From positions 744,001 to 808,000 of the forward strand of contig NZ_JAYMGZ010000001.1 of assembly GCF_037078405.1 (NCBI RefSeq): a DNA stretch of 64,000 nucleotides. Reading direction: 5' to 3'. The position numbers were made by a program, and so were the translations under genes. The notes beneath the pieces were generated by a model that saw only the letters and a program-made list of their open reading frames with translations, was not told where the DNA came from and did no database searches. Source of the DNA: Haloarcula sp. DT43 (GTDB taxonomy: Archaea; Halobacteriota; Halobacteria; Halobacteriales; Haloarculaceae). Below, one piece after another: positions 37,955 to 40,225 of the stretch (its first letter is position 1; each line of letters opens with the position of its first letter).

Positions 37955-38944
37955 GTGAACCGACGACAGTTAGGTACGACGGGGTACGACGTGACAGATG
38001 TCGGACTGGGCACCTGGAACATCGGCGGCGACTGGGGCGACGTCTCCGAAGAGGAGGGCCGGGAGACGGTCCGGACCGCGCTCGACGCGGGCATCGACTT
38101 CGTCGACACCGCCGACGTGTACGGCGACGGCTTCAGCGAGCAGCGCATCGCCGAGGTACTCGACGAGCGCGGGGTCCGCGACGAGGTGACCGTCGCGACG
38201 AAGGCCGGCCGCCGGCTCGACCCGCACACCGCCGACCGCTACAACTACGACAACCTCTCGGAGCACGTCGACCGCTCGCGGGAGTACCTCGGGGTCGACT
38301 CGCTCGAACTCCTGCAACTGCACTGCCCGCCGACGGACGCCTACTACCAGCCCGAGACCTTCGACGCGCTGGCGCGGCTGCGAGACGAGGGGAAGGTCGA
38401 CCACTACGGCGTCAGCGTCGAGCGGGTCGAAGAGGCGCTGAAAGCCATCGAGTACCCGGGCGTCGAGACGGTCCAGATAATCTTCAACATGTTCCGCCAG
38501 CGGCCCGTGGAGCTGTTCTTCGAGGAGGCAAAGCGCCGCGACGTCGGCGTCATCGTTCGCGTCCCGCTGGCCTCCGGGCTCCTGACCGGCAACCTCTCGC
38601 GGGACATGGAGTTCCCCGAGAACGACCACCGGAACTTCAACATCGAGGGAGAGGCCTTCGACCGTGGCGAGACCTTCGCCGGTCTCCCGGTCGACGCGGG
38701 CTTCGACGCCGTCGACGAACTCCGCGACCACGTCCCCGAGCGGATGACGATGGCCCAGATGGCGCTGCGCTGGATTCTGGACCACGACGCGGTGTCGACG
38801 GTCATCCCCGGCTCGACCAATCCGGACCACGTCCAGGACAACGCGGCGGTCAGCGAGATGGCCCCGCTGTCGAACCAGGTCCACGGTGCGGTGCGTGACA
38901 TCTACGAGGAGCACGTCTTCGACGCGGTCCACCATCGCTGGTAA
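37955..38944 (+). CDS. aldo/keto reductase
   Basis: The product has 329 residues from a GTG at 37955. It is an NAD(P)H-dependent reductase of the AKR superfamily, TIM barrel. The tetrad can be read: Asp51 and Tyr56 in 'DTADVYG', Lys83 in 'VATKAGRR' and His123 in 'LQLHCPP'. The C-terminal cofactor-binding 'VIPGSTNPDHVQDNAA' is typical of the potassium-channel-beta-like group (AKR12/AKR11). Substrate unknown. Downstream is an 86-bp palindromic repeat and then a convergent HTH-10 gene. Confidence 0.9.
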   Translation: MNRRQLGTTGYDVTDVGLGTWNIGGDWGDVSEEEGRETVRTALDAGIDFVDTADVYGDGFSEQRIAEVLDERGVRDEVTVATKAGRRLDPHTADRYNYDNLSEHVDRSREYLGVDSLELLQLHCPPTDAYYQPETFDALARLRDEGKVDHYGVSVERVEEALKAIEYPGVETVQIIFNMFRQRPVELFFEEAKRRDVGVIVRVPLASGLLTGNLSRDMEFPENDHRNFNIEGEAFDRGETFAGLPVDAGFDAVDELRDHVPERMTMAQMALRWILDHDAVSTVIPGSTNPDHVQDNAAVSEMAPLSNQVHGAVRDIYEEHVFDAVHHRW

Positions 38945-38955
38945 CGCGTCGCGGC

Positions 38956-39041
38956 CTATAGTAACAATTGAAACGATTTACACACTGATCGCACTGCTCT
39001 CGTGCGATCAGGTGTGCATTGATTTTCAATGGCTACTATAG
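38956..39041. repeat. 86-bp imperfect palindrome, MITE-like
   Basis: The sequence begins CTATAGTAACAATTG and ends CAATGGCTACTATAG. When folded, the two 39-40 nt arms match at roughly 80 percent, with a near-perfect central part (CACA-CTGATCGCAC pairing with GTGCGATCAGGTGTG) around a 7-nt loop. Ends of the type TAGTA...TACTA flanked by TA suggest a TA-target element (IS630/Tc1-like) that left a small non-autonomous derivative. It lies 12 bp after the aldo/keto reductase stop, so it may also act as that gene's terminator. Confidence 0.55.
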
Positions 39042-39177
39042 TTCTCCCCCAGCAGAGCTTACGTGGGCCACAGCCGATTTTCGTCTCCTACGCGGTCGGA
39101 CGGTACGGCCTACGGGTACCTCGGTGTTGTCGTCGACGTGATACCAGAATGATATATTGTGCTCGCAGGCAGCGGGG

Positions 39178-39837
39178 TCAGTCGAAGCCGTCGAAGTCGA
39201 CGAACAGCGCGTCCTCGACGAGGGCGTCGGTCGCGCGCCTGAGCCGTTCTGAAGCGGCCTGGTGCGTGATGCCCAGTTCGTCCGCGAGTTCCGCCAGGCT
39301 CACCTCGCGGGGGACCTGGAAGTAGCCGCGGTCGGACGCCTCGGCGAGGATTTCGTACTGTGCGGACGTGAGCCCGTAGCGGCCCGCGGGGTCTTCGTCG
39401 AGTTCCCGTATCGACGACACATCGAACGCGAGGTTGTGTTCCGCACAGAAGTCGTGGGTCTTGGAGAACAGCGACCGGCGCGGATACAGCACGCGCAGTT
39501 TCCAGGCGGTCCCCTGGCCCACGGCGTCGAGAATCGTCGCCTCCGAGTTGGTGAGCATCTGGACGATGAGGTCGACGTGGTCGACCCACTCCATCCTGAA
39601 CAGCCACTCGTCCTCGAAGTCGCCCAGCAGTTCGACGTTGTCGACGGTGGGGTCGGCTCCGAGTGTCCGCTCGATGTCCTCGCGCTGACTCCCGCGGACC
39701 CACAGCATCGGCATGAGCGCGTCGTCACCGCTCGTGACGATTCGCTCGATTTCGAACTGCAGTTCCGGTAGCTGCTCCAGGGAATGGTTGAGCGCGAGGT
39801 CGCTGGCGGGAACCGTCCCGGAGACGATGGTGGGCAT
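39178..39837 (-). CDS. HTH-10 (bacterio-opsin activator type) transcription regulator
   Basis: The product has 219 residues from the ATG at 39837; the longer frame to 40053 overlaps a plausible plus-strand gene and is rejected. The N-terminal domain (about 1-150) is the sensor typical of this group ('LALNHSLEQLPELQFEIERI', 'RMEWVDHVDLIVQMLT'). The C-terminal HTH-10 domain reads 'LTSAQYEILAEASDRGYFQ', 'REVSLAELADELGITHQ', then 'SERLRRATDALVEDALF'. It converges with the aldo/keto reductase, with a palindromic repeat between. Targets unknown. Confidence 0.82.
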   Translation of the reverse strand: MPTIVSGTVPASDLALNHSLEQLPELQFEIERIVTSGDDALMPMLWVRGSQREDIERTLGADPTVDNVELLGDFEDEWLFRMEWVDHVDLIVQMLTNSEATILDAVGQGTAWKLRVLYPRRSLFSKTHDFCAEHNLAFDVSSIRELDEDPAGRYGLTSAQYEILAEASDRGYFQVPREVSLAELADELGITHQAASERLRRATDALVEDALFVDFDGFD

Positions 39838-39979
39838 GGATACCCGAACTGCGAGTGGCACGGTGGTATGTCTTTCCGTTGACTTATCCGGCCGGGTGTC
39901 ACGCGACCGCTTCCTCGCCCGGACGACTGCGTGTGCAAGCACGTCGGTGATGTCCGTCACGCCGGTAGCGACGACCGCA

Positions 39980-40225
39980 ATGTCTACTATCCAACTGACC
40001 GACGACGACATCGGCAAGACGGTCGTCACGAGCACCGGCGACGAGGTCGGCATCGTCAGCGGGTACCGGTACGGTACCGCCTACGTCGACCCCGACCCCA
40101 ACCTGAAAACGACGCTCGTGACGAAACTCGGCTGGGAGGACACCGACGACGACGGCTATCCGCTCCAGACCGAGGCCGTCGCCACGATTACCGACGAACA
40201 GATACGACTCAGCTCGGACCTGTAG
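39980..40225 (+). CDS. PRC-barrel-like small protein (81 aa)
   Basis: The product has 81 residues (ATG at 39980). The sequence reads as a single small beta barrel: 'DDDIGKTVVTSTGDEVGIVS', 'GTAYVDPDPNLKTTLV' and a final strand with 'VATITDEQIRL'. This matches the compact PRC-barrel type domains that are frequent in haloarchaea and in RimM/photosynthetic H subunits. The function of the free-standing form is unknown. It is divergent from the preceding HTH-10 gene and 87 bp from the copper-protein gene. Confidence 0.55.
   Translation: MSTIQLTDDDIGKTVVTSTGDEVGIVSGYRYGTAYVDPDPNLKTTLVTKLGWEDTDDDGYPLQTEAVATITDEQIRLSSDL

Follow-up and report, generated by a model that had tools for sequence, protein, structure and literature searches.

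A palindromic, gene-less MITE of haloarchaea with CTAG target sites and a probable IS630-type helper

Short repeats that carry no gene and share their ends with insertion sequences have been described in several microbes, and the case nearest to the one reported here is RUP of Streptococcus pneumoniae. As far as the consulted portion of PMC2229807 goes, RUP is about 100 bp long, lacks genes, has IS630-like ends, targets TA and has copies in IS elements. Its helper, IS630-Spn1, was deduced from end similarity, as is ours, and according to the same portion no other bacterial repeat has ends that match an IS. Correia/NEMIS elements of Neisseria, described there too, have TA ends, lengths of about 107 and 155 bp, and stable stem–loop transcripts. 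Of full-size elements, two are directly relevant in the sections of PMC2170065 that we draw on: the transposase of ISY100, a bacterial member of the IS630 family, suffices for excision and for insertion at TA, which is duplicated, and IS630 of Shigella sonnei prefers the TA within 5'-CTAG-3' (Tenzen and Ohtsubo 1991, cited in PMC2170065). Among haloarchaea themselves, the MITEs, SMRs and PATEs surveyed in Haloquadratum are transposase-free repeats present in tens of copies (PMC3119063).

The element that we describe belongs to this general kind. By comparison of descriptions, it is set apart from RUP in being haloarchaeal, palindromic over its whole length, and targeted to CTAG rather than plain TA; Correia/NEMIS, likewise compared by description, differ from it in host. 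The CTAG preference it has in common with IS630 of S. sonnei, which is, however, bacterial and of full size. Neither the sequence nor the family was found described in the literature searched (main texts, ISfinder aside), and so, while the kind is known (RUP/IS630-Spn1; the CTAG preference of IS630), the family itself is apparently undescribed. Possibly it is identical with one of the five Haloquadratum MITE families of PMC3119063, compared by main text only: the string CTATAG is absent from that text, and the sequence tables lie in supplements.

The palindrome and its neighbours

In the window (the whole 64,000-nt stretch of DNA analysed), the 86 bases at 38956–39041 have CTATAG at both termini and constitute a nearly complete palindrome, predicted to form one long imperfect hairpin. 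The predicted folding energy is −39.1 kcal/mol for RNA (z = −8.1) and −21.1 kcal/mol for DNA (z = −6.4), and in neither case did any of 200 shuffles reach this stability. The 86-bp palindrome with CTATAG ends noticed in a preliminary description of this DNA is thus real. The 18-nt terminal arms are 89% complementary, which is to say that terminal inverted repeats are present, and a perfect inner stem of 10 bp closes a loop of 7 nt. That description was right that the arms pair over nearly their whole length, but its boundaries need correction: the outermost C and G belong to the target, each is followed inwards by one TA of the target duplication, and only the 80 bp in between are mobile, too few to encode a transposase and containing no gene. 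For the window copy the boundaries are set by analogy, from two other copies for which an empty site is available (see below). The parts, and what each assignment is based on, are as follows.

37955–38944, + strand: aldo/keto reductase gene (PF00248), upstream neighbour, outside the element (domain match)
38956, no strand: C of the target CTAG, lying outside the element (other copies have CTAG as their empty site)
38957–38958, no strand: TA, left copy of the target duplication (analogy with the empty sites of two other copies)
38959–39038, + strand: MITE body, 80 bp, TAGTAAC...GCTACTA, a nearly complete palindrome (fold, copies, empty sites of other copies)
38959–38973, + strand: left terminal inverted repeat TAGTAACAATTGAAA, resembling an IS630-type left end (arm pairing, end comparison)
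38985–39011, no strand: inner perfect stem CTGATCGCAC/GTGCGATCAG with its 7-nt loop (pairing kept through double changes among copies)
39024–39038, − strand: right terminal inverted repeat TAGTAGCCATTGAAA, resembling an IS630-type right end (arm pairing, end comparison)
39039–39040, no strand: right-hand TA of the target duplication (from the empty sites of other copies)
39041, no strand: G of the target CTAG, lying outside the element (other copies have CTAG as their empty site)
39178–40053, − strand: HTH_10/BAT regulator gene, downstream neighbour, outside the element (domain match)

Between the aldo/keto reductase stop codon (last base 38944) and the repeat there are 11 bases, and between the repeat and the 3' end of the oppositely oriented regulator gene 136. 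This closeness to a stop codon, together with the very stable fold, is what commends the idea that the repeat serves the aldo/keto reductase gene as a local transcription terminator or RNA hairpin and has been maintained in that role; the preliminary description, too, had suggested a terminator. We consider this highly improbable. The bases that follow the hairpin are TTCTCCCCC, with no T-run; positions 38700–39250 contain no terminator-like site (stem plus T-run, a bacterial-style rule only), and positions 38500–39500 no Rfam match up to E = 1. Six annotated plasmid copies occupy varied, mostly intergenic settings and are not regularly found right behind genes. Those loci among L170–L197 that contain the aldo/keto reductase gene of other Haloarcula are without the MITE: in a blastn search of that set only L195 and L196 were hit, both of them retrieved as MITE copies. 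Finally, the sequence is not unique, but recurs in the source genome, in the genus and on plasmids. A reading as terminator alone was therefore rejected, given the many copies elsewhere and the lack of a terminator-like site. The gap between the two genes (38945–39177), MITE included, is 233 bases in the window versus about 1.6 kb in several other Haloarcula; in H. japonica, the extra DNA at this place contains a 328-aa gene of the Pfam BrkB family (L172:2201-3187).

Copies, empty sites and the CTAG target

The source genome has six matches to the MITE: four full-length copies (that of the window and three at 99–100% identity to it), a half copy of 48 bases, and one match at 81%. Their flanks are unrelated to each other. 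Matches occur in 26 of the 32 Haloarcula genomes searched, with up to about 30 per genome (29, 30, 22 and 28 in the high-copy genomes G001, G006, G015 and G020). Beyond Haloarcula, a pattern search that demanded one exact end listed matches in Halomicrobium, Natronomonas, Halovenus, Natronosalvus, Natrinema and others; about 35 chance loci from bacteria and other non-haloarchaeal sources were excluded from the counts. Plasmids of many haloarchaeal genera carry the element as well (174 places in 50 plasmid records), and it is absent from the 50,697 phage records searched. Its length is constant: among the loci collected, 86 of the 92 distinct end pairs spanning <95 bp span exactly 86 bp. The preliminary description had proposed counting copies in the genome and its relatives, and had reasoned that a unique sequence with no related element would be only local; the many copies in source genome, genus and plasmids, and the existence of full-length elements with similar ends, rule this out. 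The palindrome is one copy of a gene-less MITE widespread among haloarchaea.

Two exact empty sites, both of other copies, reveal how the element sits in its target. In H. amylolytica the MITE is found as CTCGGTG-CTATAG..CTATAG-TGACTGG behind a gene that resembles, by eye, a TBP gene; H. hispanica has CTCGGTG-CTAG-TGACTGG at this place, and most other Haloarcula have CCAG. On plasmid pHH400 of H. hispanica, another copy interrupts a stretch that is continuous in Natrinema zhouii, where the site again reads CTAG; homologues of the interrupted stretch in some other plasmids are annotated as IS5 transposase. A filled site thus has the form C-TA-[80 bp]-TA-G. Since 82 bases have been added to CTAG at both sites, the element comprises 80 bp plus a duplicated TA, and its target is the TA of CTAG, which is duplicated on insertion. 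This bears out the earlier surmise of a TA-target MITE. Other comparisons were less informative: L158 gave a rough fit only, its relatives having CTGG; the empty site of L003 could not be aligned; plasmid comparisons for L355 and L351 gave no empty site, nor did L362; and the window copy has no alignable empty site, the flanks of relatives diverging directly past the aldo/keto reductase stop codon. The MITE occupies apparently the same point of an IS5-like remnant in pHH400 (L349) and in H. amylolytica (L084), through either common ancestry or repeated use of one CTAG.

The preference for CTAG is general among copies. Among the matches listed, the base outside the TA is C at 68 of 83 MITE ends, a count confined to ends that lie opposite an exact match and so free of the selection made by the search pattern. 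In 26 copies derived by similarity, a set biased towards full-length matches, it is C at 51 of 52 ends.

The TA duplication bears also on two classes from the Haloquadratum survey, the Small Mobile Repeats (SMRs) and the PATEs, which the repeat recalls in size (SMR-A is about 110 bp) and in its strong palindrome (PMC3119063). SMRs and PATEs are described there as lacking target duplication, while the present element duplicates TA; PATEs, moreover, are defined by the lack of terminal inverted repeats and by near-terminal palindromes of IS605 type, and here terminal inverted repeats are present. The ends of our element resemble those of an IS630 element instead, and we regard membership in either class as extremely remote.

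Each insertion of the MITE consumes one CTAG, and CTAG is scarce in these organisms: the window has 12 where 63 are expected. According to the consulted part of PMC6471742, the motif is depleted in haloarchaea, a conserved orphan methylase probably acts on it, and genomes of other bacteria and archaea are short of it as well; the depletion is called an open question there. Because of the scarcity in those other genomes, insertion of IS630 elements and MITEs cannot explain the depletion in general. Methylation of CTAG might either guide the insertions or block them.

A candidate IS630-type helper

The preliminary description had advised looking for a full-length element with the same ends and a transposase. 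One was found that is of IS630 type, with similar ends and the same target. The IS630-family transposase, PF13358, is matched in 114 of 293 genomes from the order, and we examined 50 IS630 loci, 30 of them returned by the search and 20 hand-picked for diversity; two elements truncated at the edge of their locus were left out. In 31 of the 50 loci the ends are of the type TATAGTA(A/G)NNGTTAGAA, mostly 1059 bp apart from TA to TA. These elements, whose relatives are annotated ISNpe3 and ISNamo16, are ∼1055 bp long and encode a transposase in two frames, both of which match the IS630 model NF033545; the two-ORF transposase also hits PF13358. Size and coding capacity distinguish them from the MITE, while ends beginning TATAGTA(A/G)..., TA duplication and CTAG target are common to both. 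The likeness, measured on the outermost 32 bases at either end, amounts to 23/32 identical positions on the right and 21/32 on the left; for the inner 21 positions, shuffling gives p = 0.0003 and p = 0.0065, respectively. An empty site is available here also: comparison of Haloferax lucentense with H. alexandrinus, on plasmid flanks 99.8% identical, shows CTAG with the TA duplicated, and the base outside the TA is C at 48 of 62 ends of these IS elements (one is N).

In our judgement, it is very likely that the repeat is an 80-bp non-autonomous MITE of the IS630/Tc1-mariner type, moved in trans, and that the mover is most likely a transposase of the ISNpe3/ISNamo16 type. Such a transposase would recognize the TAGTA(A/G)... 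ends, excise the MITE and insert it at a CTAG, within the TA, which is thereby duplicated. In so doing it would convert CTAG to CTATAG on each side, and use up the site. Movement by cut-and-paste is suggested by analogy with the bacterial ISY100, for which it is established (PMC2170065), and mobilization by this particular type by the resemblance of the ends. The window copy came to rest 11 bases behind the aldo/keto reductase gene, probably with no specific role there. What emerges for a MITE spread over many haloarchaeal genera is a target rule and a probable type of helper.

The helper could instead be a different transposase, for example of an IS630 subgroup with ends nearer TAGTARCMATTGAAA, that has since been lost from the genomes analysed. 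Several observations lend this some weight. Neither PF13358 nor the helper protein is matched in the source genome, though its four full-length MITE copies are nearly identical, and a helper inside that genome was accordingly rejected. Within the genus, helper genes of at least 90% identity and free of stops occur in only 4 of 32 genomes (G029, G011, G018 and G013), which have few MITE matches (3, 6, 1 and 3, respectively); in the four high-copy genomes the gene is lacking or broken, with no intact one found. This absence would be explained if the helper had been lost, or if it came from a related IS630 subgroup outside the loci examined. The inner repeats of MITE and IS also match imperfectly, differing at several positions (ATTGAAA versus GTTAGAA), so that the true helper could belong to a different IS630 subgroup. 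Against a different helper, the MITE and the ISNpe3/ISNamo16 type agree in TA duplication, CTAG target, first bases and left/right asymmetry; the seven other IS630 end types fit far worse (4–8 of 22 positions, versus 14 and 16 of 22); and no better-matching ends were present among the 50 IS630 loci. We think a different helper unlikely, and the ISNpe3/ISNamo16-type transposase the probable one.

A helper that bears the MITE's own 18-nt ends was sought and rejected. In H. hispanica, 80 ends with at most two mismatches resolve into 35 short pairs and no unexplained long pair; MITE-like ends 0.3–4 kb apart were not found beyond those that two MITEs explain. In the haloarchaeal loci inspected, unpaired exact ends are those of diverged, truncated or interrupted MITEs, or else the sequence runs off the contig.

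Conservation of the fold, and variant copies

Among 82 distinct 86-bp copies, uncorrected for relatedness, pairing at the fold's 35 pairs is intact in 95.7% of cells, as against at most 94.4% in shuffles. Double changes that preserve pairing affect 10 of the 35 pairs and 56 cells, whereas 500 shuffles gave at most 9 pairs and 25 cells. Most of them lie in the central stem, and as they seem to track a small number of lineages, there are fewer events than cells. These compensatory changes are the least explained feature of the MITE. One tentative reading, which we rate as rather doubtful, is that the full-length palindrome is the working part, the element being selected to remain an 80-bp foldback that needs its hairpin. 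It draws on the central-stem pairing kept through double changes and on a 123-bp variant (below) in which the stem still pairs. Were this so, the hairpin, as a DNA cruciform or as RNA, might serve mobilization, protection of the host from read-through, or control of the helper. Gene conversion from arm to arm would yield the same pattern as selection.

The 123-bp variant occurs in the Natrialbaceae MAG Tc-Br11_E2g14 (L085, L136, L155 and L167). Its ends are identical to those of the MITE, and its central stem is different and longer, and still pairs by eye. Longer end-to-end spans of 414, 168 and 169 bp were considered as parent elements and rejected, because nested insertions explain them: these are MITEs with other elements inside. 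One such insertion is a second palindromic element of ∼80 bp with ends TACGG...CCGTA, seen within copies of the 80-bp MITE in Halomicrobium katesii (L097 2736–2903; L117 1611–1779) and also in L087 near 206. Another, unrelated and of ∼330 bp, is nested at the centre of a MITE copy in H. katesii (L112 6067–6480). In H. amylolytica (L008 1501–1675), two MITEs stand in tandem, separated by 3 bases, one of which is N in the assembly.
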